Part shown: piece by piece, positions 8,832 to 38,600 of the stretch
How positions within the stretch are numbered: the first letter of the stretch is position 1
How the letters are laid out: every line of letters begins with the position of its first letter
From: Chloroflexota bacterium
GTDB lineage: Bacteria > Chloroflexota > UBA5177
Direction: 5' to 3'
DNA length: 38,600 nucleotides
Assembly: GCA_025966365.1 (NCBI GenBank)
Contig: JAICWV010000015.1
Location: 1 to 38,600 of the forward strand
Program-made: the position numbers and the translations under genes
The notes under the pieces: model-generated
What the model was told of the DNA's origin: nothing
The model's input: the letters and a program-made list of their open reading frames with translations, nothing else
Databases searched by the model: none

Positions 8832-9578
8832 ATGCAATCCAACGTCGAGCATTACCAGGCGCTCGCGCGTGTCTACCGCCTCTTCTACCACGACTACGAA
8901 GGGACAATGCGTGAGGAAGGGGCGTGGTTGGCTGCGCTGCTCCACCGCTTGGGGGCACGGACGGTGCTGGACGCGTGCTGTGGTATCGGCCGCCAGGCGA
9001 TTCCCCTGGCAGAGGCTGGATTCCTGGTGGTTGCAGCCGATCCCTGTGGTGCCATGCTGGCCGAGGCGAAGCGCCTCTCGGGGGAACGTGACCTCTCCAT
9101 CGCCTGGCTTCTCTCCGACTTTGAGGGCCTTTCAACGACACTTTCAGGGCAATTCGATGCCGTGATCGCACTTGGCAATGGGCTCTGTCACTGCCCGACG
9201 CGTGACGCGGTAGGGCGCGCTCTGGCCGCCCTCCGCCGCTTCAATGCGCCTGCCGGCGCGTGTGTGGTCGGAATCAAGGACTTTGACCGTCTCCGCGGGG
9301 CATCCAGACAGTCCCACGCCTACGGCCGGTGCGAGGAGGAGGGCATGACCAGCGACCTGACCCAGACCTGGGACGTTCAGGAGCCGCAGCTCATCTGCCG
9401 TACCGTCCTGCGCCGGAGGGACAGCGCCTCGGGGCGCGTGCAGTCGGAGGTTCGGGCCGAAACCAGGGAATACATGCTGGGAAGTGCCGAGCTACGGGAG
9501 GTCGCGGCTGAAGTGGGGTTCCGCTCAGTCGAGCCTCTGGCGCATCCGGGCGAAGCAGTCTATCTGCTCCGCCCCTGA
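8832..9578 (+). CDS. Class I SAM-dependent methyltransferase
   Basis: 248 residues from the ATG at 8832, preferred over an upstream in-frame start because it follows a good promoter. The Rossmann methyltransferase motifs are present: motif I 'VLDACCGIGRQAIPLAEAG' (SAM binding) near 42, 'VVAADPCGAMLAEAKR' with the acidic ribose ligand near 65, and 'FDAVIALGNGLCHC' (motif IV) near 110. The C-terminal beta region ('AETREYMLGSAELREVAAEVGF') resembles glycine/sarcosine N-methyltransferase-like proteins, but the substrate is unknown. Its TGA abuts the stop of the convergent small gene; both stops lie inside the palindrome CCTGATCAGG at 9574-9583. Confidence 0.85.
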   Translation: MQSNVEHYQALARVYRLFYHDYEGTMREEGAWLAALLHRLGARTVLDACCGIGRQAIPLAEAGFLVVAADPCGAMLAEAKRLSGERDLSIAWLLSDFEGLSTTLSGQFDAVIALGNGLCHCPTRDAVGRALAALRRFNAPAGACVVGIKDFDRLRGASRQSHAYGRCEEEGMTSDLTQTWDVQEPQLICRTVLRRRDSASGRVQSEVRAETREYMLGSAELREVAAEVGFRSVEPLAHPGEAVYLLRP

Positions 9579-9842
9579 TCAGGAGTGGGTGGCATCGTGC
9601 AGGTAGAGGCGCTGAAATTCCTCTTCTGCCTTTCGATAGATCTGTGGCCGGTGTTGTTTCCACTCCGTCAGCTTCCCCAGGACGATGGTTTGCTCCCGTC
9701 TCAGGTGGGCGCGCACACCTTCCTCGGCCGAGTCGAGATCAACCGTTTGCATGTTGAGAAGGAGCGCGCGCAGGCGATGCATCTCCGCCAGGATGGCGTG
9801 GTACACCGCCTCGTTCTTCTTCTCGTCGGTCGAAGTCATCAT
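9579..9842 (-). CDS. Small helical protein, unknown
   Basis: 87 residues starting at tandem ATGs (9842/9839). Almost the whole chain is predicted helical and highly charged ('EAVYHAILAEMHRLRALLLN', 'AHLRREQTIVLGKLTEWKQH', 'YRKAEEEFQRLYLH'). The regular heptad-like hydrophobic spacing suggests a helical hairpin or coiled coil. There is no signal peptide or known motif. A longer in-frame frame (to 9971) would run into the divergent secreted-protein gene and is rejected. Confidence 0.6.
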   Translation of the reverse strand: MMTSTDEKKNEAVYHAILAEMHRLRALLLNMQTVDLDSAEEGVRAHLRREQTIVLGKLTEWKQHRPQIYRKAEEEFQRLYLHDATHS

Positions 9843-9906
9843 TGCCCCCAGACTCCATCGTATCGGGTATGATGGCGGGTCCAACTTTTCCCAGCAGAGG
9901 TAACCT

Positions 9907-10506
9907 GTGCGCAATCCGATTTCACCCGTCCCGGCGCTGCTTGTCGCCACACTGGCTGCGGCCGCCTGCACCGGCAGCGTCCTGGCGGCGACTCATCCGG
10001 TCGGCGCCGCCACGTTTATCCTGAAGCGCTCCGACGTGCCGGCAAGCTTCAATGCCAAAACCGACTATGTGCGTCCAGTTTCATTTGCGGACGCCCTGAC
10101 CCGCTACAGCGTCAAGGCAGCCACGCTGACCAAGAAGGGCCTCGTAAACGGCTACGAGTCGGGGTTCACTCGCCGCTACAACGGAAAGAGCACGGCGCCA
10201 GGTTTCTACGGTGTGGCCGATAACGTGACCCAGTTCAAGTCCACCTCCGGCGCTCACTGGTTCTTCCAGCACATGAAACGGGCAGGGTACGGGACGCTGT
10301 CGACGGCTGTTCCGTCGATTGGGGATGAGGTCGTCGCCATCCATACCGGAACGGAGCATGGCTCTCGGATTGCCGACATCACGTTCCGGCACGGCGATTT
10401 TGTGGTCAGCGTGAGTACATCCTATATCGGTAAGTCCGATCCTCTGCCCAAAGCGGTCCACTTCGCCAAACTCATCGATCATCGTTTGACGGCGCATTCC
10501 GAGTAG
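9907..10506 (+). CDS. Secreted protein of unknown function
   Basis: 199 residues from a GTG preceded by AGAGGTAAC. Residues 1-27 form a signal peptide ('PALLVATLAAAACTGSVLA'); a Cys at 21 is a poor lipobox, so soluble export is favoured. The mature part has a pattern 'ADNVTQFKSTSGAHWFFQHM' and 'PSIGDEVVAIHTG' followed by 'ADITFRHGDFVVSVS'. This resembles actinobacterial/Chloroflexota exported proteins in which a DUF-type alpha/beta domain senses or binds something at the surface, but I cannot name the family. A TATGAT at 9868-9873 is a possible -10 box. Confidence 0.7.
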   Translation: MRNPISPVPALLVATLAAAACTGSVLAATHPVGAATFILKRSDVPASFNAKTDYVRPVSFADALTRYSVKAATLTKKGLVNGYESGFTRRYNGKSTAPGFYGVADNVTQFKSTSGAHWFFQHMKRAGYGTLSTAVPSIGDEVVAIHTGTEHGSRIADITFRHGDFVVSVSTSYIGKSDPLPKAVHFAKLIDHRLTAHSE

Positions 10507-10546
10507 AGGTACGCATCTTGCCGGTTCGTGGACCAAAGGAGGAGTC

Positions 10547-10918
10547 ATGAGCCAGCACGATCAGAACACCTCCCCCGGATACCCGGGATCGGACGCGCCG
10601 CAGCCCGAGCAGACGCAAGACACGCACCAGAGCGTGGGTGAGAAGATACGCGAGTTTGTGAGCGGGGTCTTCGGGGGGACGACCGAAGAAACGGCAGAGA
10701 ACGCGCCGGAGCTTCTCGATGCTGGCGTCGATCCGGAAGAGCGGCGTGATTTAGGTCTCGGGGTCGCGGACGTGGAAGAGGATCCCTACCAGGGCAGCGC
10801 GGGCTCGAAGGCGCTCGATATGATCAGCGATGAGATTCCGGGGCGAGACGCTCCACCGGACTCGGCGCTCTACCCGCTCGACGAAAACGACGACTCGGCC
10901 AGTGTTCCAGCGGATTAA
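10547..10918 (+). CDS. Acidic, probably disordered protein, unknown
   Basis: 123 residues with a near-perfect ribosome binding site (AAAGGAGGAGTC before ATG), implying strong translation. It is very acidic and low in aromatics. It has a short amphipathic helix 'SVGEKIREFVSGVFGG' near 27-42, then 'ELLDAGVDPEERRDLGLGVA' and an Asp/Ser-rich end. There is no signal peptide. The composition suggests a stress-type or scaffold-like hydrophilic protein, but no family is recognised. It converges on cutA with 3 bases between the stops. Confidence 0.65.
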   Translation: MSQHDQNTSPGYPGSDAPQPEQTQDTHQSVGEKIREFVSGVFGGTTEETAENAPELLDAGVDPEERRDLGLGVADVEEDPYQGSAGSKALDMISDEIPGRDAPPDSALYPLDENDDSASVPAD

Positions 10919-10921
10919 CGG

Positions 10922-11248
10922 TCAGGACGGGACGGAAACCTGGCTCTCCAGCCAGGCGATGTAATCCGAATGCCCGGCAACAACGGGCACAGCCAGGATC
11001 TCGGGCACATCGTAGGGGTGGTTCTCGCGGATCACCTCTTGTAGGCCCGTGTAGGCCCGCTCGGTGGTCTTGATCAGGCAGAGCCACTCTTCAGCCGTCT
11101 CGATTGCTCCCTCCCACCAGTAGGTGCTCCGCAGCGGTCCCAGCACCTGAACGCAGGCTGCCAGGCGGCGTTCGACCAGCACGCGCGCGATCGTCTCCGC
11201 TGCCTCCCTGGAATCCACCGTGGTGAAGACCTGAATGGCGTCGGTCAT
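10922..11248 (-). CDS. cutA: CutA-like divalent cation tolerance protein
   Basis: 108 residues, the standard CutA length. Family motifs are clear: 'SREAAETIARVLVERRLAAC' with the conserved Cys, 'STYWWEGAIETAEEWLCLIKT' (the W-W-x-G-x-I core) and 'HPYDVPEILAVPVVAGHSDYIAWLE' at the C-terminus. CutA forms a very stable trimer of PII-like fold; it was linked to copper tolerance in E. coli, but its precise role is unsettled. Its ATG overlaps the stop of the alpha-glucosidase gene (ATGA), so it is translationally coupled to it. Confidence 0.93.
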   Translation of the reverse strand: MTDAIQVFTTVDSREAAETIARVLVERRLAACVQVLGPLRSTYWWEGAIETAEEWLCLIKTTERAYTGLQEVIRENHPYDVPEILAVPVVAGHSDYIAWLESQVSVPS

Positions 11249-12852
11249 GCGCCCTCGATCTGGATCACGAGTCCTTCGTTGGGTCGGAGGACGAGCGGAT
11301 CCAGGCCGTCCACCGACTCCCGATCGAGGTGCGTTGAGAGGACCTGACCGGGCTTCGTGCCGGGGAGCAGGACCGTCCGCGGGTCCGAGGTCAGATTGAG
11401 CGCGATTAGCCAGGATTCGCCGTCCGCCTCACGTTCGTACACAACTGTTCCGTCTTCACTCTCACGGGGACGATATGCACCCAGCGCCAGAGCCGGAGAG
11501 GAGCGCCGCAGCGATAGGAGCCGGGCGGTGAGGGTGAGCATGGATCGGGGATCGTTCCGCTCGACCTCGACGTTCACGCGATCGGCATCGGCTGATACCG
11601 GCAGCCAGGGCTCGACGTTCGGCGGGCAAAAGCCGGCGTGGGGGCCGCTGGTCCACTGCATGGGCGTCCGCTCCGCATCGCGCCCCTGTCCCGGCACGCC
11701 GTGGCCGGCCGGGTCCTGGAGTTTCTCTACCGGAATGGGCACATCCTGCATGCCGAGCTCGTCGCCGTAGTACAGGGTCGGCGTTCCGCGCAATGTCAGC
11801 AACAGCATGGTCGCCACCCGCGCCTGCTCCGTGCCGAGACGCGAGGCCAGGCGGGATACGTCATGGTTTCCCAGAACGTAGTTGGGCCAGGCGTCCGGCT
11901 GGATCGCACCTTCCACGCTGTCGACGACGGTCCGAACAGTCTCCGAGGTCCAGGGGCCGAAGAGGAGCCCGAAGTTAAAGGGCATATGGATCTCGTCCAG
12001 ATCGGATCCGTAGTAGGATGCCCAGACCGGCCAGTCGAAGATGTGGATCTCGGCCACCGCCATGCGCGGCGACTGCTCGCTGTATTCGTCGAGCACGGAG
12101 CGCAGTCGCCGGAAGGTGGCGTGGATATCCTCGTGCCCCTTGTCGTGGGGATGGAGGAAGGCGTCATACTCATCCGGGGCGCCCGTGTGTGCGGGATTCG
12201 GTGGATTATTCCGCATGGCCGGGTCTTTCATGATGAGGTGGGCGGCGTCGATGCGGAAGCCGTCCACGCCACGCTCCATCCAGAAGCGCAGCACATCGAA
12301 CATGGCCGCTTCCACCTCGGGATTGCGCCAGTTCAGGTCGGGCTGCTCCTTCAGGAAGGAGTGAAGGTAGTACTGGCCGGTTTGCTCGTCCCGCTCCCAG
12401 GCGCCGCCGCCGAAGATGCTCTGCCAGTTGTTGGGCGGCGAGCCGTCCGGCCCGGCGTCGGCCCAGACGTACCAGTCGCGGCGGGGATTATCGCGCGAGG
12501 AGCGCGACTCGACGAACCAGGGGTGGCGATCCGAGGTGTGGTTGATCACGTAGTCGATGATGATCTTCATGCCGCGCCCGTGCAGCGCCGCAGTCAGGGC
12601 GTCGAAGTCGGCCAGCGACCCGAACTGGGGATCGACGTCAACGTAGTTGGAGACGTCGTAGCCGAAGTCGGCCATGGGGGATGGGAAGAAGGGCGAGAGC
12701 CAGACCGCGTCCACGCGCAGCACGTCGTGCAGGTAGCCGACCTTCTCGGTGATCCCGGCGATATTGCCGATGCCGTCGCCATCAGTATCCAGATAGCTTC
12801 GCGGGTAGATCTGGTACACCACGCCACTCTGCCACCACAGCGGTTGCGTCAT
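11245..12852 (-). CDS. GH13 alpha-glucosidase (oligo-1,6/alpha-1,4-glucosidase type)
   Basis: 535 residues. The start is the ATG at 12852 with GGAGGAAGTG just upstream; the frame stays open to 13185 but that extension is antisense to the FRG gene. GH13 conserved regions are all present: 'DYVINHTSDRHPWF' (region I), 'GVDGFRIDAAHLI' with nucleophile Asp202, 'MAVAEIHIFD' with acid/base Glu268, and 'YVLGNHDVSRLASR' with Asp331. 'WWQSGVVYQIYPRSYLDTDG' at the N-terminus with a Ca-binding-like D-x-D-G-D-G is typical of the oligo-1,6-glucosidase/alpha-glucosidase subfamily. There is no signal peptide, so it acts on imported maltodextrins, isomaltose or sucrose-like sugars in the cytoplasm. No sugar transporter is adjacent. 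Confidence 0.93.
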   Translation of the reverse strand: MTQPLWWQSGVVYQIYPRSYLDTDGDGIGNIAGITEKVGYLHDVLRVDAVWLSPFFPSPMADFGYDVSNYVDVDPQFGSLADFDALTAALHGRGMKIIIDYVINHTSDRHPWFVESRSSRDNPRRDWYVWADAGPDGSPPNNWQSIFGGGAWERDEQTGQYYLHSFLKEQPDLNWRNPEVEAAMFDVLRFWMERGVDGFRIDAAHLIMKDPAMRNNPPNPAHTGAPDEYDAFLHPHDKGHEDIHATFRRLRSVLDEYSEQSPRMAVAEIHIFDWPVWASYYGSDLDEIHMPFNFGLLFGPWTSETVRTVVDSVEGAIQPDAWPNYVLGNHDVSRLASRLGTEQARVATMLLLTLRGTPTLYYGDELGMQDVPIPVEKLQDPAGHGVPGQGRDAERTPMQWTSGPHAGFCPPNVEPWLPVSADADRVNVEVERNDPRSMLTLTARLLSLRRSSPALALGAYRPRESEDGTVVYEREADGESWLIALNLTSDPRTVLLPGTKPGQVLSTHLDRESVDGLDPLVLRPNEGLVIQIEGA

Positions 12853-19545: not shown

Positions 19546-20526
19546 ATGCGATTGTCACGATTCTTCGCCGTCCTCCTGATGCTCGCCGTTGCTATGCCGG
19601 GTCTCGCTCGCGCCTCCACGTCACGGGCGCCGGACCCAAGTCCGCCGGGCCGGGCCCTGGTGCTCGAGCCGTTCGCCACCCAGCTCGGTTACGGACCGAC
19701 CGCAGGAGCTGCTGTGGCGTCGACACTGACCGCTGCCGGTTTCTCGGTGGATATCCTGCGCGACGAACAGGTGACCGTGCCGGTGATGCAGAGCATGTCC
19801 CAGTACTCGGTCGTCTATATCGAGACCCACTCACAGACCGTGGACAATCACGGCTTTATCCTGACCGGCGATCAGGATGCGGATGATTACACCACCATGC
19901 GCCGTGACTGCGCCGCCTCCAACCCGAGCTACTGCGCCCTCATGCAGGGCTTTGCCGGACACGACGCCGGCCATCTCTACAACGCCATCACCGATCGCTT
20001 CATTCAGGATGATCTGAACGGTACCTTCCCCAACAGCACCATCGTGTTCATCAACGGCTGCAACTTGCTGGCCGCCCCGTCCTTCTGGAATGCCCTGTCC
20101 GCGAAGAACACCTCGACGATGGTCAGCTGGAATAACGATGTCGATAGCGTCACGACCGAGCCCAGCGCTGCGCTGTTTTTCAAAGATATGGCCCAGGGCA
20201 TGTCGGTGACCGATGCCGTGGCCGCGGTTACGGCCTCCGGTCTCGGAACCAGCACCTTTACCGATCCCACCGACGGGCACACCTATATCGCGCAACTTGG
20301 CTTCCTGGGCGACGGCTCCGCCACGCTGGCACGCGCCAGAGTGGGTGATCCGCCACCGGTCACGGCCACGTCCACCCCGACTGCAACGCCCAGGCCGACA
20401 GCCACTCCCAGGCCGAAGGCCACCCCGGTCAAGAAGCGGCTGCACTGCAAGAAGGGGTATCACATCTCGCACGGAAAGTGTGTGAAGACCAAGAAGAAGT
20501 CGGCAAAGCACAAGAAGAAGAAATAG
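19546..20526 (+). CDS. Secreted caspase-fold-like (CHAT/clan CD-like) protein with Lys-rich C-terminal tail
   Basis: 326 residues. Signal peptide 1-24 ('FFAVLLMLAVAMPGLARA'). The mature N-terminus is an alpha/beta domain. After a strand 'YSVVYIETHSQTVDNHG' comes His95, and after strand 'STIVFINGCNLLAAPSF' comes Cys172. A His at the end of one strand and a Cys in [hydrophobic]4-x-G/A-C at the next is the dyad layout of clan CD peptidases (caspases, gingipains, CHAT). A Thr/Pro/Arg linker at about 265-290 leads to a two-Cys motif 'LHCKKGYHISHGKCVK' and a run of Lys, a tail common on surface proteins of high-GC Gram-positive-like bacteria. Peptidase activity is inferred only. Confidence 0.6.
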   Translation: MRLSRFFAVLLMLAVAMPGLARASTSRAPDPSPPGRALVLEPFATQLGYGPTAGAAVASTLTAAGFSVDILRDEQVTVPVMQSMSQYSVVYIETHSQTVDNHGFILTGDQDADDYTTMRRDCAASNPSYCALMQGFAGHDAGHLYNAITDRFIQDDLNGTFPNSTIVFINGCNLLAAPSFWNALSAKNTSTMVSWNNDVDSVTTEPSAALFFKDMAQGMSVTDAVAAVTASGLGTSTFTDPTDGHTYIAQLGFLGDGSATLARARVGDPPPVTATSTPTATPRPTATPRPKATPVKKRLHCKKGYHISHGKCVKTKKKSAKHKKKK

Positions 20527-20599: not shown

Positions 20600-21340
20600 C
20601 TACCTCACCCAGTTCTGATAGATCCTCGGAATGCGGTTGGGCAGGATATGCGCCGCCAGTACCTGGCTGAAGACGATGGTGGAGCCTGGCGAGATGTAGT
20701 ACGTCGCGGCACCGACCATGTATGAGCCCTGGGTCGTCTGGGTGGAGCTGACGATGTTGGTCACGGTTCCGGTGATGGTGTTAGCGGCGCAGTTTCCTGC
20801 CGCTACCGTCATCGCCGTGACCCGGCCGAGCGGGCTCAAGGTTAGAGTGAACTGCTGCGTCTGGCCGGCGGTTGGTGTCCCGCCGGTTACGGCGGCGTCG
20901 CTCTGCAGGGTGAAGGTCGTACCGCCGACACTCAGGACGGTGCCCGCTGTGTAGGCTGCGGTGAGCCCGCAGACCGTCAATGTCGTGGAGGTGGGCGGCA
21001 GAACCGTCCCACCGGAGATCTGGTTGCTGGAGTTCGCCGCGCCCGGCACGAAGCATACCGATGCCCCGGCGGTGAGGCCGGTGTCACCGGTCACGGTCGA
21101 CCCCGGAGCGATGGCGTAGGTCTGGCTCGACGCGGTATTGGGTGGGGTCGTGGCCAGAACGAGCGAGCCCGCCGCCGAGGCTGTGGCGGCAGCATACGAG
21201 GTGACTGTCCCGCACACGCCGCTTGGCAGCGTCGGTACTGGAGCCACCGCGGGTGTCTGGGCATGGGCCGAGGTCGCCGCCAGCGCCGAGAAACCGGTCA
21301 AACAGACGAGAGTGAGCAGTAGTCGCACGGGTTTGAACAC
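20600..21340 (-). CDS. Secreted Ala/Thr-rich protein, part of sigma/anti-sigma operon
   Basis: 246 residues from the GTG at 21340, chosen because GGAGG sits 8 bases upstream; the ATG at 21355 overlaps that site. Residues 1-28 are a signal peptide ending in A-H-A-Q. The mature protein is Thr/Ala/Gly-rich and built of beta-type segments ('SQTYAIAPGSTVTGDTGL', 'TVLSVGGTTFTLQSDAAVT', 'ATYYISPGSTIVFSQV') with four spaced Cys that could form disulfides. The segments resemble DUF5666-like small beta domains, weakly. It lies 71 bases downstream of the anti-sigma gene on the same strand, so it is probably part of that regulon or operon. Confidence 0.7.
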   Translation of the reverse strand: MFKPVRLLLTLVCLTGFSALAATSAHAQTPAVAPVPTLPSGVCGTVTSYAAATASAAGSLVLATTPPNTASSQTYAIAPGSTVTGDTGLTAGASVCFVPGAANSSNQISGGTVLPPTSTTLTVCGLTAAYTAGTVLSVGGTTFTLQSDAAVTGGTPTAGQTQQFTLTLSPLGRVTAMTVAAGNCAANTITGTVTNIVSSTQTTQGSYMVGAATYYISPGSTIVFSQVLAAHILPNRIPRIYQNWVR

Positions 21341-21411
21341 CTGAGAATCCTCCATACCTGTGGTAATGCAAGCGGCTTGCGGGGCAAGATTCGCGCCAGC
21401 ATGTCGGGAGG

Positions 21412-22760: not shown

Positions 22761-22777
22761 TCAGTACTAATCAGTAC
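22761..22777. promoter_or_regulatory. Direct repeat TCAGTAC-TAA-TCAGTAC upstream of the sigma gene
   Basis: Two identical 7-mers start exactly 10 bases apart, one helical turn, 19 bases upstream of the sigma factor start. This spacing suits a same-face protein-binding site. No known regulator is assigned. Confidence 0.35.
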
Positions 22778-22851
22778 GTGATCGATACCGCGTCGGATCA
22801 CCGGCAGGCCGCTCCAGTATCGCATGGTGATCTAAAAGGCAGGACAACACG

Positions 22852-22857
22852 TATAAA
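22852..22857 (+). promoter_or_regulatory. Candidate -10 box TATAAA for the ferritin-like gene
   Basis: An A/T-rich TATAAA in otherwise GC-rich DNA, 53 bases upstream of the GTG start. No clear -35 is visible, which might mean an ECF-type or activated promoter. Confidence 0.35.
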
Positions 22858-22879
22858 TAGAACGAGGCGCACTTGCCTG

Positions 22880-22891
22880 CTGATATATCAG
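22880..22891. promoter_or_regulatory. 12-bp palindrome CTGATATATCAG in the leader
   Basis: A perfect palindrome between the TATAAA and the AGGAGG of the ferritin-like gene. It is a candidate operator or a small leader hairpin. Confidence 0.35.
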
Positions 22892-22910
22892 ATGACCAGG
22901 AGGAAAATAG

Positions 22911-23765
22911 GTGAATAAGGACGAGCGAGACTTTCAAGAATCGGTCATACGCGAGTCGATCAAGTCCAGAATGTCCCGGCGAACGCTGTTGAGCGGTGCC
23001 GCGGCCACCGCGGCAGCCATTGCCATACCGGGCGCCGCTCACGCGCAGGGACCGACCGTGCTGAGTCTTCCCTTCTTTCCCAACGTGCCCGGGAGGTACT
23101 CTCCGGAGTCCATACCCACCATGATCAATACGGCGATCACCGCCGAAGCCCTCGCCGTGACGTTTCTCACGGCGGCGCTGGGCTCCAGCGCGCTGGGATT
23201 GAACAGCCTGGAAACAGCGATTGTCCAGGCGGCGCTGGTGGAGGAGCAGGACCACTACGATGTTCTGGCCAGCTTCGGCGCAACCCCGCTCACCACCACC
23301 TTCACGGTGCCCGACCCCAAGATGCTGACCGACAAGGTCACATTCTTTACGACGCTGTGGGCGGCAGAGAGCCTCTTTGTCGCCGCCTATCTCGCCGCTG
23401 TGCGTGAGGGCGCCGAGCTGGGTCAGCCAACCTTCTCCCTCCTGGCAGCCGAGGTTATGGGTGTCGAGGCGGAGCACCGGACGCTGGCGCGCGCCGCGCT
23501 TGCGCTCAACGGCGACGACGCCGGGATTCCCCCGAACGACAAGGCCTTTGAGACCGGCTTCTTGCTGTACGTCTCCGATGCAGTCGGGGTCCTCCAGACG
23601 CTGGGCTTCGTGGGTGGAAACGGCATCCAGGCCGCGTATCCGGGCAAGGACAAGGCACTGGCGGCAGCCGGTCCCATGGCCACCGCGGTCATCCAGCAGT
23701 CGCCCAGCTTCCCCGGCCCCACGCCGACCATCACATCGGCGGCGGACCTTCTCGTTCAGCGCTAA
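22911..23765 (+). CDS. Tat-exported ferritin-like diiron protein (Ferritin_2)
   Basis: 284 residues from a GTG preceded by AGGAGG. The N-terminus has a twin-arginine motif 'SRRTLL' at 22-27 then a hydrophobic run to about 45, so it is exported folded. The four-helix domain shows the diiron pattern: Glu79, Glu112-x-x-His115 ('LVEEQDHYDVLA'), Glu153 ('WAAESLFVAAY') and Glu186-x-x-His189 ('GVEAEHRTLARA'). This matches the ferritin-like/desiccation-related group of secreted proteins. The role is probably iron- or oxidant-related protection at the envelope. It is divergent from the ECF sigma gene and is a likely target. Confidence 0.88.
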   Translation: MNKDERDFQESVIRESIKSRMSRRTLLSGAAATAAAIAIPGAAHAQGPTVLSLPFFPNVPGRYSPESIPTMINTAITAEALAVTFLTAALGSSALGLNSLETAIVQAALVEEQDHYDVLASFGATPLTTTFTVPDPKMLTDKVTFFTTLWAAESLFVAAYLAAVREGAELGQPTFSLLAAEVMGVEAEHRTLARAALALNGDDAGIPPNDKAFETGFLLYVSDAVGVLQTLGFVGGNGIQAAYPGKDKALAAAGPMATAVIQQSPSFPGPTPTITSAADLLVQR

Positions 23766-23777
23766 TCGCGACGTCTC

Positions 23778-23808
23778 CATGGGCCCCGGCGGTAAGCCGG
23801 GGCCCATG
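23778..23808 (+). terminator. Strong hairpin terminator-like element
   Basis: CATGGGCCCCGGC (23778-23790) and GCCGGGGCCCATG (23796-23808) form a perfect 13-bp stem with loop GGTAA, 12 bases after the ferritin-like stop. A C/T-rich stretch rather than a T-run follows. Confidence 0.65.
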
Positions 23809-23858
23809 CCCTCTCCGTGGCGCGCCGAGCCCTCGCTATACTGCGATACAGGTTGTCC

Positions 23859-24560
23859 GTGCGCCGAGTCTTTTTGATCCTCTCTCCCCTCCTGACAGTC
23901 CTGTCGGCGTGCGGGGCGATTCCGGCCGCGACCCAGCCCAGCCCCACCATTACGCGCCCTACGCTTGTCCCGGCCCGTGCAGGAGTGTATGTGGCCCTCG
24001 GCGCGTCCGAAACCTACGGCACCGGAGCGCAGCCCTATACGAACGGCTACGCCTACCGGGTGGCTCGATCGCTTCACGCCCGCCGCTTTCTGGATCTGGG
24101 GATTCCCGGCGCCACCCTTGACGCGGCCTACCAGACGGAGTTGACGCGGGCCCTGGCAGCACACCCGGCGCTGTGTACCGTCTTCTTCGGTGTCAATGAC
24201 CTGCGTGCCGGGGTCACCAAGGACAACTTCACCGCCGAGCTGTACGATCTTGTCGCCACCCTGCGCCGCGGCGGCGCGCGGGTCCTCATCATTGGGATGC
24301 CGGATCTGGCAGAGCTTCCTGCCGCCCAGGCCTTTCCCGACGCGGGACCCATCTCCAGGCGCTGGAACACGGGAATGGCGCGAGTCGCCCGCAAGGCCGG
24401 GGCAGCCTTCCTCGATCTTTCGCGCTTCTCGCACGAGCTCGCCGCCCACCCGGAATACCTGGCGCCGGATGGCCTGCATCCCAGCACCACCGGGCACGCG
24501 CGGCTGGCGCAGGTCGTTCTGGCCGCGATTCGCGCAGACCATCTCTGGGTCGCCGGATGA
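23859..24560 (+). CDS. SGNH-hydrolase lipoprotein, TesA-like
   Basis: 233 residues from a GTG with AGG upstream and a TATACT -10 box at 23837-23842. Residues 1-18 are a lipoprotein signal ('LLTVLSAC', lipid-bearing Cys18). SGNH blocks: Ser50 in 'YVALGASETYG' (GDSL-like), Gly83 in 'DLGIPGATLD', Asn113 in 'FFGVNDLRAG', and Asp204/His207 in 'APDGLHPST'. It should hydrolyse acyl esters at the outer face of the membrane. It overlaps the ABC ATPase gene by 4 bases, and the ATPase overlaps the FtsX-like permease. In E. coli the SGNH enzyme TesA is encoded beside YbbA-YbbP, so this is that system with a lipid-anchored esterase. Confidence 0.88.
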   Translation: MRRVFLILSPLLTVLSACGAIPAATQPSPTITRPTLVPARAGVYVALGASETYGTGAQPYTNGYAYRVARSLHARRFLDLGIPGATLDAAYQTELTRALAAHPALCTVFFGVNDLRAGVTKDNFTAELYDLVATLRRGGARVLIIGMPDLAELPAAQAFPDAGPISRRWNTGMARVARKAGAAFLDLSRFSHELAAHPEYLAPDGLHPSTTGHARLAQVVLAAIRADHLWVAG

Positions 24561-32700: not shown

Positions 32701-33123
32701 TTGGACATCCGCTTTGGCCTGGGGCTGCTCGGCGTCATCATTCTGGCTGTCGTGGTCGGGCTGATCGCGGCGCAATCACAATCGAAGACCGCGGCCGCGC
32801 CCGCGCCCACCGCCATTTCCCGGCCCATCCCCACACCGCAGGTCAACCACGTCAACATCGTGTCCGATGCCGCCAATAGCGGGGGGTTTTTCGTGCCCAC
32901 CTCGCTCACGGTTCAGGTCGGCCATCCGGTCACATTCGTCAACGACGATTCCAGCTCGCACAGTGTAATCGCCGACAACGGAGCCTTTAATAGCGGAGTG
33001 CTGACACCAGGTGAAACCTTCACCTGGACGCCAAAGAAGCCGGGCCGCTACGAGTACTCCGACTTCCTTGTCCCCTCCTTGCACGGGGCACTGGAAGTCG
33101 TCACCTTCCCCGTCGCCGGGTAG
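32701..33123 (+). CDS. Membrane-anchored cupredoxin-fold protein lacking copper ligands
   Basis: 140 residues from a TTG with GGAGGAG about 9 bases upstream. One N-terminal membrane helix (6-24) and a Pro/Ala linker precede a plastocyanin-like domain: 'FVPTSLTVQVGHPVTFVNDD', 'SSSHSVIADNGAFNSGVLTP' with His87, and 'KPGRYEYSDFLVPSLHGALE'. In copper-binding relatives the last motif is Y-x-Y-H-C-x-x-H-P-x-M. Here the positions are Asp121, Val124 and Leu127, so Cys, His and Met are all replaced and only His87 remains. Electron transfer by a type 1 site is therefore unlikely. It is cotranscribed with acylphosphatase, 4 bases apart. Confidence 0.82.
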   Translation: MDIRFGLGLLGVIILAVVVGLIAAQSQSKTAAAPAPTAISRPIPTPQVNHVNIVSDAANSGGFFVPTSLTVQVGHPVTFVNDDSSSHSVIADNGAFNSGVLTPGETFTWTPKKPGRYEYSDFLVPSLHGALEVVTFPVAG

Positions 33124-34585: not shown

Positions 34586-35410
34586 CTAACTCGCGTTGCG
34601 AGCGATGCTGGTAAGGACCTCGATTGCCAGCCGGCGGGAGCGGTCTCCGCGACGGCCGATGCGCTGGACCAGGCGTGCCAGCTCAAGGGTGCCGTCGATG
34701 GCGTCGTTGCCGTCGGCCAGAGCACCACGCGCCGCATCCGCCAGCGGCTCGTTGCCACGTCCCTCCGCCGCGCTCTCCAGCTCTTGAATCAAGAGTCGGC
34801 CGATGGTGCTCACCATACGTGCCTGCTCGACACCGATAGCGGCGGGCCGCGCGAAGAGGCCGAGCAGATCCATGTCGTCAAGCCCGAACGACGCGGCGCT
34901 GGCCTTGTCCAGCACCGAGAGGACGCCGATGACGTCCTCGCTGACGATCAAGGGGACCGCCAGGATGGACTTGGGCACGTAGCCGGTGGATTTGGCGAAG
35001 TCCTTGGCGAAGCGCGGGTCGCGCATGACGTCGGAGACGGCAATCGGCTCGCCGGTCATCACCACCCAGCCGGAAATCCCCTGGTGGGCCGGAAACCGCC
35101 GGTTGAGGACGGCATCGCCGTCGGTCGAGGCCTCGAACACCAGCTCGTTCGTCTCCTCGTCCAGAATGCTGACCGAGGCAGCGCGGGCATCGAAGATGCG
35201 CCGAGCTGCTTCCACGATTCCGGCCAGCAGCGCCCGATACGGCGTCTGGCCGACGGTGGCGCTGACCACATCCGACAACTCCAGTACACCGCGCAGAGCA
35301 CCGGCGGCGCCGCGCGACTCGAGCTCCGACTGCAGCCGGTGAATCTGGACTGCCTGCGTCGCTACGGTAGCTCGCGCCGACTCCAGTTCTTGCTGCAGAT
35401 CCTCCGTCAT
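34586..35410 (-). CDS. GAF-domain sensor protein with N-terminal coiled coil
   Basis: 274 residues. The start at 35410 has AGGAGG just upstream and overlaps the subtilisin stop (ATGA). Residues 1-35 are a coiled coil. The GAF domain at about 55-205 includes 'RRIFDARAASVSILDEETNE', 'FPAHQGISGWVVMTGEPIAV' and 'SILAVPLIVSEDVIGVLSVL', the usual small-molecule or redox-sensing core. A helical C-terminal region follows, with no histidine kinase, cyclase or DNA-binding domain visible. It therefore likely acts by protein contact, and its coupling to the protease suggests it regulates or is cut by that enzyme. Confidence 0.86.
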   Translation of the reverse strand: MTEDLQQELESARATVATQAVQIHRLQSELESRGAAGALRGVLELSDVVSATVGQTPYRALLAGIVEAARRIFDARAASVSILDEETNELVFEASTDGDAVLNRRFPAHQGISGWVVMTGEPIAVSDVMRDPRFAKDFAKSTGYVPKSILAVPLIVSEDVIGVLSVLDKASAASFGLDDMDLLGLFARPAAIGVEQARMVSTIGRLLIQELESAAEGRGNEPLADAARGALADGNDAIDGTLELARLVQRIGRRGDRSRRLAIEVLTSIARNAS

Positions 35411-36252
35411 CCGATCCTCCTCGACTGTGCCTGCCGGACGTTCTTCGCGGTGTAGTACAGAACGCTTTTGATCTGGAAGGGGGTCAGCTCGGGGTGTTTG
35501 CCCAGAATTAGCGCCACGATCCCCGCGATATGGGGCGTTGCGTAGCTGTTTCCGGTTCCCACGGCAGTGGACTTCCCGGCCCAGGCCAGCTCCAGGTCCA
35601 CGCCCGGCGCCGTAAATTCCACCGGTGGGTCGGGATTGTAATAGAAGGTGAAGGGATCGTGCTCGGCATGGCTGGCTACCGAGATCACCGAGGCGAAGAG
35701 CCATGGGTAGCTGTAGACCGGCGTGTTGTTGGCGGAGGACACGATCACCGTGTTCTGGAAGTACGCCTCGTCGGCGAGGTCGTGCAACGCCCGCACGTGC
35801 TCCTGTTTGCGTGTGCTCAAGCTGAGGTTGATGATGTTCATTCCCTGGTCAATGGCCCAGCGCACGCCCGCGATCAAGGCATCGCCTCCGCCCTTGAGAT
35901 TCTGACCGAGGACACGGGCACTGTAGAGCTCCGCCTCCGGAGCGAGAGAGTGGATGATCCCGGCGCAGGCGGTGGCGTGGCCGAAGAGATCGTCGTGCGG
36001 CTCCTCGCGCACGATCGGACCTTCCGGTCCCTTCTCGACCAGGATCCCGCCGCGGACCATACCGCCGACCATGGGATGATCGGCCTCGATTCCGGAGTCC
36101 ACGATGCAAACCCGTACCCCTTTGCCGGTACTCCCGCCCCAGGCCCATTCCGGGGTGATTTCGACATTGGGCACGGGAATGATGGGTGGTTGATCTTCCG
36201 GCCGTGTGGGCCAGCTAAAAGCGGGAAGCTCGTCGTCTTCTTCGTCGTCCAT
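35407..36252 (-). CDS. Subtilisin-like serine peptidase (S8), intracellular type
   Basis: 281 residues from the ATG at 36252, which follows an acidic-coding start and sits 7 bases after a TATAGT box. There is no signal peptide and no classical prodomain; only a short acidic/Pro-rich leader (1-40) precedes the domain. The triad is complete: Asp52 in 'VRVCIVDSGIEADHP', His92 in 'LFGHATACAGIIH', Ser236 in 'GTGNSYATPHIAGIVALIL'. The oxyanion Asn is in 'VIVSSANNTP'. The protease probably acts in the cytoplasm. It is translationally coupled to a GAF protein and lies downstream of the His-rich repeat gene, separated by a terminator-like hairpin. Confidence 0.92.
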   Translation of the reverse strand: MDDEEDDELPAFSWPTRPEDQPPIIPVPNVEITPEWAWGGSTGKGVRVCIVDSGIEADHPMVGGMVRGGILVEKGPEGPIVREEPHDDLFGHATACAGIIHSLAPEAELYSARVLGQNLKGGGDALIAGVRWAIDQGMNIINLSLSTRKQEHVRALHDLADEAYFQNTVIVSSANNTPVYSYPWLFASVISVASHAEHDPFTFYYNPDPPVEFTAPGVDLELAWAGKSTAVGTGNSYATPHIAGIVALILGKHPELTPFQIKSVLYYTAKNVRQAQSRRIG

Positions 36253-36259
36253 GACGCTA

Positions 36260-36265
36260 ACTATA
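36260..36265 (-). promoter_or_regulatory. -10 box TATAGT seven bases before the S8 peptidase start
   Basis: On the minus strand TATAGT is followed by TAGCGTC and the ATG at 36252, with no Shine-Dalgarno sequence. This is the second leaderless-type start in the window. It lies just beyond the hairpin that ends the upstream unit. Confidence 0.45.
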
Positions 36266-36275
36266 CCTAATGAAA

Positions 36276-36307
36276 AGAGACGGATCGCACAAGTGCGATC
36301 CGTCTCT
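36276..36307 (-). terminator. Terminator after the His-rich repeat gene
   Basis: A perfect 15-bp stem (36276-36290 with 36293-36307, loop of 2) ends on the minus strand in TTTTC. It should stop transcripts of the His-rich gene 45 bases after its stop codon, so the peptidase gene has its own promoter. Confidence 0.8.
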
Positions 36308-36352
36308 GCTTCGGCTAGGGATTGGCGGGAAGCCAACCCGCACAGTAGTGAG

Positions 36353-36907
36353 CTAAAGGTTGCCCGTCATCTTGGGGGCGCCGTGATGGGTGTGCTTGGC
36401 GAAGCTGTGGCCCTCGACGTCGTCCTCCTCGATCTCATCCTGGCGCGGGGCGCCGTGATGGATGTGCTTGGGGGCGCCGTGATGGGTGTGCTTCGAGAAG
36501 CTGTGGCCCTCGACGTCGTCGCCCTCTGTCTCGTCCTGACGGGGGGCACCGTGGTGCACGTGCTTGGGCGCACCGTGGTGGGTGTGCTTGGGCATGCCGT
36601 GACCTTCCACGTCCTCGATCTCATCCTGGCGCGGAGCGCCGTGATGGATGTGCTTGGGGGCGCCGTGGTGGGTGTGCTTGGGCAGGGCGTGGCCTTCAAC
36701 GTCGTTGTCTTCGGTCTCGTCCTGACGGGGGGCACCGTGGTGCACGTGCTTGGGAGCGCCGTGGTGGGTGTGCTTGTGACCCTCGACATCCTCATCCTCA
36801 TGATGAGGACGACCGTGGTGGGTATGCTTCGACTCGGTGGGCTGGCCAAAAGTCGAGCTGCCGTGATCGCCTTCCAGGGACTCGTTGTTGATTTTCTCGT
36901 CGTTCAT
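36353..36907 (-). CDS. Histidine-rich tandem-repeat protein (KHTHHGAP / DVEGH)
   Basis: 184 residues, 38 of them His, no Cys, no signal peptide, and AGAGG upstream of the ATG. After an acidic leader (1-26) comes a degenerate unit (27-44), then four full units of 30-32 residues starting at 45, 77, 107 and 139, and a partial fifth (171-178). Each unit is 'KHTHHGAPKH(V/I)HHGAP', an acidic spacer 'RQDE(T/I)E', then 'DVEGH' and three variable residues. Units 1 and 3 share HVHH/DETE, units 2 and 4 HIHH/DEIE, so a two-unit block was duplicated. H-x-H-H clusters could chelate zinc, nickel or copper. An alternative is a precursor cut between acidic and basic blocks. The antisense hydrophobic frame is a shadow. 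Family not recognised. Confidence 0.85.
   Translation of the reverse strand: MNDEKINNESLEGDHGSSTFGQPTESKHTHHGRPHHEDEDVEGHKHTHHGAPKHVHHGAPRQDETEDNDVEGHALPKHTHHGAPKHIHHGAPRQDEIEDVEGHGMPKHTHHGAPKHVHHGAPRQDETEGDDVEGHSFSKHTHHGAPKHIHHGAPRQDEIEEDDVEGHSFAKHTHHGAPKMTGNL
36390..36826 (-). repeat. Tandem DNA repeat encoding the His-rich units (90-96 bp period)
   Basis: The four protein units are also highly alike at DNA level, with units 2 and 4 nearly identical over more than 60 bases (36431-36500 and 36613-36682). Recent duplication and copy-number change are likely. Confidence 0.8.
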
Positions 36908-36924
36908 TACTCTAACCTCTCACT

Positions 36925-36995
36925 TGAACTACTGTGGCCGATTGGCTTTGTAGTTCACACTGTATTCTTGCGCCGGGAACGGCGCTATGAACTAC
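36925..36995. promoter_or_regulatory. Three copies of TGAACTAC upstream of the His-rich gene
   Basis: TGAACTAC occurs at 36925-36932 and 36988-36995, and its inverse GTAGTTCA at 36950-36957, all in the 98-base gap before the His-rich gene. The direct copies are 63 bases apart (about six turns); the first and second form an inverted pair. TCACA half-sites at 36997 and 37006 resemble Crp/Fnr sites. It is a candidate operator cluster. Confidence 0.45.
36971..36984 (-). terminator. Short hairpin CGCCG-GGAA-CGGCG after the Crp/Fnr gene
   Basis: A 5-bp GC stem with a 4-base loop lies about 22 bases after the regulator's stop. It is weak as a terminator, so readthrough into the His-rich gene is possible. 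Confidence 0.35.
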
Positions 36996-37005
36996 TTCAC
37001 ATTTC

Positions 37006-37698
37006 TCACAAAGTTCCTACCGCGTACTCCTCCAGTGCCTCCCGATCCAGAATCCGAATGCGGCCACGCCATAGCTGTACGACCCCTTCATCCACCAATG
37101 CGTTCAGATGCTTGTTGACGCTTTCCCTGGTGGCCCCCGTCATGTGGGCGAGGTGTTGCTGGGTCAGCCGGAAGGTGTTGTCTGTCCCGTCCAGCATTCC
37201 GCCGCTCTGCAGGGAGAGGAGTCTTCGTGCCAGCCTGCTCCGGACGTCCATCAGCGCCAGCTCATCCACCAGATCGGTACAGCGGCGCAGCTGGCGCACC
37301 ACCACCTGAAGGCATGAAAAAAGCGCCGAAGGGTGCTGTTCCAGAAACTCGCGGAACAGTGAGCGGGACAGGAAGAGGGCCGTGGTCGGCTCCTCCGCTG
37401 TAGCACTGGCCGAGCGCGGCTCGTCGTCAAACAGGGCCAGCTCGCCGAAGTACTCGCCCGGCTCGTGCAGGGTGATGATCACTTCGTCGCCGCTGGCGTT
37501 CTCGCGGCTGATCCGGACATGGCCGTCGGTGACAATGTAGAGCCCATCGCCACGGTCTCCCTGGGAGAAGATCAGCTCGTTGCGGCCGTACTCACGGCGC
37601 GCCACCTGCCGCACCAGGACCGCGAACTCCGTATCGGGGAGGTCGCGGAACAGGGCGACATCGCGAAGAACCAGGCTGGATGCACCGGAGACAGCCAT
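37006..37698 (-). CDS. Crp/Fnr-family transcription regulator
   Basis: 230 residues from the ATG at 37698; a GTG at 37725 is an alternative. The N-terminal cyclic nucleotide-binding fold (about 10-120) contains 'LIFSQGDRGDGLYIVTDGHV', 'EVIITLHEPGEYFGELALFD' and 'EPRSASATAEEPTTALFL', where the G-E-L-A-L-F-D and P-R-S-A-S match cAMP-binding contacts. The C-terminal HTH_Crp domain includes 'RLTQQHLAHMTGATRESVNK' and 'HLNALVDEGVVQLWRGRIRI'. It lacks the Cys cluster of Fnr, so cAMP or another nucleotide is the likely ligand. It is divergent from an MFS transporter and upstream of the His-rich gene. Confidence 0.93.
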   Translation of the reverse strand: MAVSGASSLVLRDVALFRDLPDTEFAVLVRQVARREYGRNELIFSQGDRGDGLYIVTDGHVRISRENASGDEVIITLHEPGEYFGELALFDDEPRSASATAEEPTTALFLSRSLFREFLEQHPSALFSCLQVVVRQLRRCTDLVDELALMDVRSRLARRLLSLQSGGMLDGTDNTFRLTQQHLAHMTGATRESVNKHLNALVDEGVVQLWRGRIRILDREALEEYAVGTL

Positions 37699-37799
37699 AT
37701 GGTGTGTATCGTCACCGTAGCACACCCGGCGAGGGTTGTCATCTTCGTTGCCGACACGCGTGGGGTTACGATAGCATCATTGCATTCCGGGGAGTGGCG

Positions 37800-38600
37800 A
37801 TGCGCGAGCTGGCGGCGGTCCTTCGCAATCGAAACATGGTTCTGCTGTTGGCCGGCCGGCTCATCTCGACCGGCGGGGACTGGATCTATAACATCGCGCT
37901 CAGCATCGCGATCTACCAGTACGGCCACGGTCAGACGTTTCTCATCAGCCTGTTCTGGCTGATCAAGCTGGTTCCCAGCCTGGCCTTCGGGCCGCTTTCG
38001 GGCAGCCTGGCCGACCGGCTGGGCTATCGCCGCTCCATGATCCTCTCCGACGTGGGCCGCATGGTGCTGGTCGCTGCGCTGGCTCTGGTTCTGAGCGGCT
38101 CGACCTGGCTGGTCATCTACCCGGTCGCCTTTCTGGTGACGTCGCTCAGCACCCTCTTCAGCCCTGCCAGCACCGGAATCATTCCGTCCCTGGTCGGCTC
38201 GAAAGAGGAGCGCCTGGCCGGCAATGCCGCGATCTTGCAGGTCGGCTCGATCGCCATGATTGCCGGCAGTGCCATTGGAGGCGTCGTTGCAGGAGTTGGT
38301 CACATCGCCCCGCTGCTGTTCATCGAAGCCGCCAGCTTTGGCATATCCGCTCTCTCGCTGGCCTTCATTCGGCCGCACCGGCCGGCGGTCACGACGGATG
38401 AAGCGGAGGAAGACGAGGAGGAGGAAATCGCAGCAGACGAGCCGGGCGGATACCTTGGGTCGTACCGGATGCTGGCCAGGCGACCAATCCTCCTTTTCTC
38501 TGCCAGCGTGCTGGCTCTCCCCGAGCTGGCGTCCGGCGCCACCGTGGTGTGGATCGTCCCCTATGCTGAAGCCCATCAGTACCTCAATATGGGCTCGTCC
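37800..38600 (+). CDS. MFS transporter, partial at right edge
   Basis: 267 codons are visible and the gene runs off the window. The ATG at 37800 has GGGGAG 5 bases upstream. Membrane helices are clear, and 'GPLSGSLADRLGYRRSMILS' is the MFS loop 2-3 motif. 'GRLISTGGDWIYNIALSIAI' at the start and 'STLFSPASTGIIPSLVGSKE' are typical of the EntS/MFS_3 group of multidrug or siderophore exporters. An acidic loop 'DEAEEDEEEEIAAD' sits after the first half. It is divergent from the Crp/Fnr gene with 101 bases between, so it is a likely target of that regulator. Confidence 0.9.
   Translation, partial: MRELAAVLRNRNMVLLLAGRLISTGGDWIYNIALSIAIYQYGHGQTFLISLFWLIKLVPSLAFGPLSGSLADRLGYRRSMILSDVGRMVLVAALALVLSGSTWLVIYPVAFLVTSLSTLFSPASTGIIPSLVGSKEERLAGNAAILQVGSIAMIAGSAIGGVVAGVGHIAPLLFIEAASFGISALSLAFIRPHRPAVTTDEAEEDEEEEIAADEPGGYLGSYRMLARRPILLFSASVLALPELASGATVVWIVPYAEAHQYLNMGSS

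Follow-up and report, generated by a model that had tools for sequence, protein, structure and literature searches.

In this work, we analyzed a histidine-rich tandem-repeat gene in a 38,600-nucleotide stretch of Chloroflexota DNA (hereafter, the window), together with its neighbours and its relatives across the phylum. The encoded protein is apparently one member of an undescribed bacterial family of "beads-on-a-string" peptide precursors. Judged from sequence, it is probably a multicore peptide precursor that would be cut after each DVEGH motif by a partner S8 protease, and whose products are perhaps plain linear peptides. Computed support comes from several sides: (i) the gene belongs to a cassette that recurs in other genomes, (ii) the motif is kept in the relatives while the cores are replaced, (iii) the motif is linked to the protease gene, and (iv) the same motif class marks the leader/core boundary of precursors encoded beside lanthipeptide synthetases.

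The repeat gene and its neighbours in the window

The repeat gene lies on the minus strand at 36353..36907, and its listing as a predicted multicore precursor with five DVEGH motifs and His-rich cores is based on an ORF recount, on Tandem Repeats Finder and on the motif and gene position shared with the relatives. The recount gave 184 residues with 38 His and no Cys, as the earlier note on this DNA had it, and reproduced the six KHTHHG (residues 27, 45, 77, 107, 139 and 171), four KH(V/I)HHGAP (residues 53, 85, 115 and 147) and five DVEGH copies (residues 40, 69, 99, 131 and 163) counted there. The period of 30-32 residues given there has to be widened to 29-32, the DVEGH spacings being 29, 30, 32 and 32. 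The first motif (aa 40-44) occupies 36776..36790 on the minus strand, where the predicted cut after His is based on sequence and motif conservation; the others, placed by sequence on the same strand, are at 36689..36703 (aa 69-73), 36599..36613 (aa 99-103), 36503..36517 (aa 131-135) and 36407..36421 (aa 163-167). The 32-residue unit reads SFSKHTHHGAPKHIHHGAPRQDEIEEDDVEGH. Tandem Repeats Finder detected the array independently, with a period of 96 bp (4.3 copies, score 476) and also with one of 186 bp (score 590).

Pairwise comparison of four aligned 22-codon units, whose pairs are not independent, yielded 38 synonymous and 8 nonsynonymous codon differences, where neutrality would predict 79% nonsynonymous; of the 52 nucleotide differences between units, 44 fall in third codon positions. 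This synonymous excess indicates that the protein sequence, its His-rich part included, is maintained, and rules out a spurious or non-coding ORF. The long antisense ORF at 36206-37309 on the plus strand was taken to be a side effect of the repeat and of the GC content. By inspection, the N-terminus (MNDEKINNESLEGDHG) is hydrophilic and does not resemble a signal peptide, and the protein had no match in Pfam, NCBIfam or PADLOC, so that the absence of a signal peptide and of a known family, both asserted earlier, held. Neither the search of the repeat protein against plasmids nor that of the whole window against Rfam returned a match, and AlphaFold2 run on the single sequence predicted no structure (pLDDT 54, pTM 0.13). 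A role of the locus in anti-phage defence was discarded, as the PADLOC matches were only generic (subtilase, cNMP-domain).

On the minus strand, the repeat gene is preceded by a gene for a CRP/FNR-family regulator and followed by a hairpin, an S8 subtilase gene and a GAF-protein gene, with a divergent MFS gene on the other side; these partner genes on both sides had been overlooked in the earlier reading. The regulator (37006..37725, minus strand; cNMP-binding and Crp HTH domains) is encoded directly upstream. The hairpin (36276..36307, minus strand), with a 14-bp perfect stem, a T run and a fold z of -7.0, resembles an intrinsic terminator between the repeat and protease genes, and would leave more mRNA for the precursor than for the enzyme. 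The predicted processing protease (35407..36252, minus strand; 281 aa; PF00082, 5.8e-31) belongs to peptidase family S8 by its subtilisin fold, its Asp-His-Ser triad and its oxyanion Asn: the catalytic set D52/H92/S236 plus N176 is complete, these four residues are invariant among 32 aligned homologues, and the structural model (pLDDT 88) retrieved subtilisins in Foldseek (E ~1e-18). On inspection it showed neither a signal peptide nor an I9 propeptide, so that we expect a cytosolic enzyme that does not inhibit itself. The constant companion of the protease is a coiled-coil and GAF-domain protein (34586..35410, minus strand), whose gene start and the S8 stop overlap by 4 bp. The MFS transporter, assigned by domain match (37800..38600, plus strand, continuing past the window end), is a candidate exporter. 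Elsewhere in the window we observed a cupredoxin-like small protein with an N-terminal hydrophobic segment (32701-33123, plus strand), 3 kb from the His-rich gene and with no conserved linkage seen, and three long putative ORFs without a Pfam match at E 1e-5 (19546-20526, 20600-21355 and 22767-24542).

The cassette across Chloroflexota

Relatives of the S8 protease were found at E <= 1e-60 in 40 of 400 genomes of the phylum searched, and 55 non-redundant cassettes, loci from GTDB contigs included, were compared. The conserved cassette comprises a CRP-type regulator, a repeat protein, the S8 subtilase, the GAF protein and, often, an MFS transporter. The GAF gene lies on the same strand within 500 bp of the S8 gene in 50 of the 55 loci, and a CRP regulator and an MFS transporter are each found within 6.5 kb of it in 33/55. 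Gene order varies between genomes, yet the S8, GAF, CRP and repeat genes remain together. About 25 of the 55 S8 genes have beside them a gene for a small protein that carries between one and seven [DE]n-(V/T)-E-G-H motifs. At the Anaerolineae loci L014, L015, L018, L020 and L022, the protease is partnered by a short protein whose leader looks helical and which carries motifs of the form E-V-x-(A/G)-H. An independent DNA-pattern scan for [DE]3-x-EGH, with matches in 24 S8-positive genomes, placed 50 of its 75 matches no more than 5 kb from an S8 gene (0.29 expected), and 20 of the 24 genomes had such a match (again 0.29 expected). These figures are far above expectation, and the linkage of motif and protease is thus not due to chance.

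Within the family, the motif is the constant part. In a profile over 91 copies, selected with the pattern [DE][VTA]EGH, a D/E-rich stretch leads into D(V/T)EGH, position 1 being D in 97% and the next V or T in 98%, and codon changes inside the motif between copies of six arrays were 76 synonymous and 14 nonsynonymous. The spacers differ between genomes, with KP, RKG (RKGLTD), AKLPG (AKLPGAA), APQRD (QRAPQRD) and HKVKAV types, and outside the window genome they are basic, poor in Cys (0.4%) and contain 1.9% His. Since DVEGH is kept while the spacers are unrelated, the His clusters on which the earlier note laid its emphasis are the variable part of this one genome, and DVEGH is the conserved element.

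The association is not universal. About 12 of the 55 S8 loci have no recognisable precursor, several of them at contig ends; G002 and G226 (82% and 89% complete) bear arrays without S8, G158 has a partial S8 only, the L136 array is not adjacent to S8, and a repeat protein with RLKPESD spacers (L029) adjoins CRP only. L139 (G338) was excluded from the family, as its two DDVEGH copies lie inside a larger protein of a different kind. In a subset of loci a conserved helical-looking tail, xLLPDPxLxRxLAxAREREIERxxR, follows directly after the last motif (L053 4968-5180, L116 10925-11209, L127 7940-8167, L128 8259-8585, L131 6134-6460 and L136). It may represent another type of cargo or serve in docking; it could also be a sign of a structural role (L053, L116, L131), which would count against the precursor reading. 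Outside Chloroflexota the S8-GAF pair occurs at least once, in the actinomycetote Miltoncostaea: on a plasmid of M. oceani (L153, 7067-8868) it lies by genes for a 90-aa NHLP-leader-like protein, an MBL-fold protein and an MFS transporter, with no VEGH array seen at this locus.

Lanthipeptide-linked relatives and protease specificity

The S8-GAF pair adjoins class III/IV lanthipeptide synthetases in Ktedonobacteria and their neighbours, among them Ktedonosporobacter rubrisoli and Tengunoibacter tsumagoiensis. The synthetases of these LanKC/LanL-linked relatives carry RamC_N, kinase and LANC domains, L048, L026, L107 and L113 have both such a synthetase and a Cys-bearing core, as in class III/IV lanthipeptides, and eight of the nine RamC_N loci found in the tested genomes adjoin S8. 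The leader/core boundary of 21 lanthipeptide-like precursors is marked by [DE]-V-x-G-Y, the cores bearing Cys, Ser or Thr; the layout is an NHLP-like leader (searched for one precursor), the motif and then the core, as in EVSGY-LVDQCSLTCVLTSCTITSL (L117) and DVAGY-LGSGFCSLTVY (L121). The motif occurs in 22 of 709 small ORFs near these loci, 21 of them precursor-like, against 0.2 expected from shuffling. At the RamC_N synthetase locus without S8 (L152, in G299) no clear precursor was seen, and it provided no motif control. Taken together, the H and Y forms define a boundary of the type (D/E-5)(V-4)x(G-2)(H or Y-1). Two further arrangements were observed. In Tengunoibacter, several separate lanthipeptide-like precursor genes precede one class III/IV synthetase (about six in L121 1-2462, about four in L117 1172-2341). 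The L106 locus (9314-12142) combines the S8-GAF pair with a radical SAM protein resembling YydG and with a small protein whose sequence ends in DVQGYAKGNGNFYY; this is possibly an epimerised-peptide cluster.

One branch of the S8 tree (16 rows, support 88/91) has all Y-motif enzymes on one side, and the H-motif enzymes lie elsewhere in the tree. Only two alignment columns, those of S146 and R148 of the window protease, separate the two types without exception, the former holding Ser in 29/29 H-type and Gly in 12/12 Y-type enzymes. S146 aligns with Gly127 of subtilisin BPN', a residue that lines the S1 pocket, which holds the residue before the cut. The covariation of S146 and R148 with motif type is suggestive of S1-pocket specificity and not proof of it, because the motif classes nearly equal one split in the protease tree and the covariation may be one event. 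The window genome has a second S8-GAF pair (L046, contig C44, 1083-2815) with Gly at the S146 position, that is, of the Y-motif type, on a 7-kb contig that held no recognisable precursor. As classified by the residue at this position, this genome holds both protease types, H and Y.

Proposed processing and comparison with known systems

In the model that we favour, the repeat protein would be an intrinsically disordered multicore precursor whose conserved acidic block, ending in DVEGH, acts as the processing signal and alternates with a hypervariable, lineage-specific core (in the relatives, mostly basic). The cytosolic S8 protease encoded next door, together with its constant GAF partner, to which we tentatively assign a gating role, would cleave after the His of each DVEGH and release four His-rich units of 29-32 residues, (xxx)KHTHHGAPKH(V/I)HHGAPRQDE...DVEGH, plus end pieces. 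Fragments ending at GH, one of the two ends proposed earlier, would agree with this cut; the ends at GAP found no support. The adjacent CRP/FNR regulator would control transcription, the terminator after the precursor gene would keep the precursor in excess of the enzyme, and the peptides, for which a biological activity is inferred, would probably leave the cell through the MFS transporter. The neighbours conserved in the VEGH cassettes were only S8, GAF, CRP and MFS, with no conserved modification enzyme among them, and the products may therefore be plain linear peptides, perhaps outside the strict definition of RiPPs.

The earlier note had left the choice between a metal buffer and a multi-copy precursor. 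The second option gained from the partner protease, from the motif being the only conserved part and from its use at lanthipeptide boundaries. A role of the intact protein as a metal buffer or metallochaperone, with Zn, Ni, Cu or Co bound at its HxHH clusters, is suggested by its 38 His in 184 residues, by the purifying selection on the KHTHHGAP units within the array, by the H-x-H that follows the motif in some relatives (5/5 in L050, 4/5 in L053, 2/3 in L134) and by a C-terminal HHGHH in L044. However, the His richness is not conserved among the orthologues, the spacers of the equivalent gene in other genomes showing no His enrichment, and this comparison led us to reject metal buffering as the function of the family. 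Moreover, the partners are a protease, a GAF protein and a CRP regulator, with no metal transporter or metalloregulator, and no metal-protein family was matched in Pfam or NCBIfam. We thus consider this explanation of the window protein quite improbable, while metal binding by this genome's own peptide is possible. Alternatively, the repeats could bind the S8 protease (or the GAF protein) multivalently, as a regulatory tether or pseudosubstrate that holds it inactive or concentrates it, with no peptide maturation. A disordered acidic protein that keeps its motif and has a fixed linkage to the protease would suit such a role, a protease without inhibitory prodomain needs some restraint, and hypervariable spacers are as expected for mere linkers. 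Against it, the motif stands at leader/core boundaries in the lanthipeptide-linked relatives, the cores of the window array are under purifying selection, which is unexpected for linkers, and a terminator separates the repeat gene from the protease gene. We give this alternative only a slight chance.

A sub-case of the precursor reading, whose probability overlaps with that of the whole, is that an enzyme whose gene lies outside the cassette, at another place in the genome, modifies the cores before the cut, as in a modified multicore RiPP. The occurrence of S8-GAF pairs with lanthipeptide synthetases and with the YydG-like radical SAM protein indicates that this protease family serves modified peptides elsewhere. 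Nevertheless, besides the missing enzyme in the VEGH cassettes, RamC_N was absent from all 20 VEGH-group genomes tested (the window genome G000 and 19 others), the Cys-poor, mutually unrelated cores share little for one enzyme to act on, and no candidate unlinked modification enzyme was found. We therefore regard this sub-case as unlikely.

S8 leader proteases and multicore precursors are each known; the open-access literature that we searched describes no system that combines them with GAF and CRP proteins and tandem DVEGH arrays but has no modification enzyme, subscription journals being a place where a prior description could stand. In open-access full text, DVEGH retrieved unrelated papers only, and VEGH with RiPP, or GAF with subtilisin-like and RiPP, retrieved no such system. 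It is tempting to speculate, as a possibility that we hold rather tentatively, that the cassette is a widespread bacterial counterpart of prohormone and pheromone arrays, in which a cytosolic, signal-gated S8-GAF module, shared with lanthipeptide clusters, cuts repeat proteins into unmodified lineage-specific peptides. If so, the cargo might be signals, antimicrobials or, in the window genome, His-rich metal-binding peptides; a new peptide-producing system would be spread across Chloroflexota, making a ribosomal peptide family missed by genome-mining tools keyed to modification enzymes; and the system would supply a protease that cuts at a defined site, recognises a short portable tag, (D/E)V-x-G-(H/Y), and has a natural switch between H and Y specificity.

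Measured against the strict definition of a RiPP precursor, the window cassette has the boundary motif and a cognate protease gene (by motif and linkage, cleavage being predicted) and contains no modification enzyme. It falls outside class III/IV lanthipeptides, as the protein has no Cys and its genome no RamC_N. QhpE is a small S8 protease of a peptide-maturation pathway. It was the second-best partial NCBIfam match of the window protease, behind mycosin; both scores were below the NCBIfam cut-offs (108.1 bits against 165 for QhpE, 126.6 against 278.75 for mycosin), and no qhp genes were seen near the window protease. The AmyP-type S8 proteases of class III lanthipeptides recognise a (T/S/A)EVE motif in LanKC-type precursors (PMC10885120); compared by description only, they share the protease family and a short acidic motif in the precursors with our system, but the motif is another one, and no synthetase is encoded in the window cassette. 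Fungal Kex2-processed repeat proteins (KEPs) combine tandem repeats, protease signals and diverse cores, some of them unmodified linear pheromones (PMC7329392). Tandem repeats, protease signals and highly diverse cores are found here as well, a likeness in logic and not membership: KEPs use the secretory pathway and dibasic sites, whereas our system is bacterial and predicted to be cytosolic, and the repeat protein has a hydrophilic N-terminus on inspection and acidic DVEGH sites in place of KR, RR or KK.

Two other systems offer parallels in site architecture. In cyanobactin biosynthesis, PatA cleaves after G(L/V)E(A/P)S (PMC10885120), and PatE, like the repeat proteins, has hypervariable cores with short recognition sequences recurring on either side of them; in contrast, a PatG macrocyclase, a heterocyclase and a DUF are all missing from the window cassette, and its protease, at 29.4 bits for TIGR03895 against a cut-off of 421, is not a PatA/PatG member. 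ElxP, a proven cytoplasmic S8 leader protease of epilancin-type class I lanthipeptides, recognises (D/E-5)(L/V-4)XX(Q-1) (PMC10885120). It differs in having Gln at -1 instead of His or Tyr, in making a single leader cut instead of serving a tandem array, and in that no GAF partner has been described for it. ElxP and the window protease are both of family S8, the former cytoplasmic and the latter predicted to be so, and their proven or predicted sites have D/E at -5, L/V at -4 and a defined -1 residue, and the predicted boundary (D/E-5)(V-4)x(G-2)(H/Y-1) fits the register of ElxP and resembles the PatA site.
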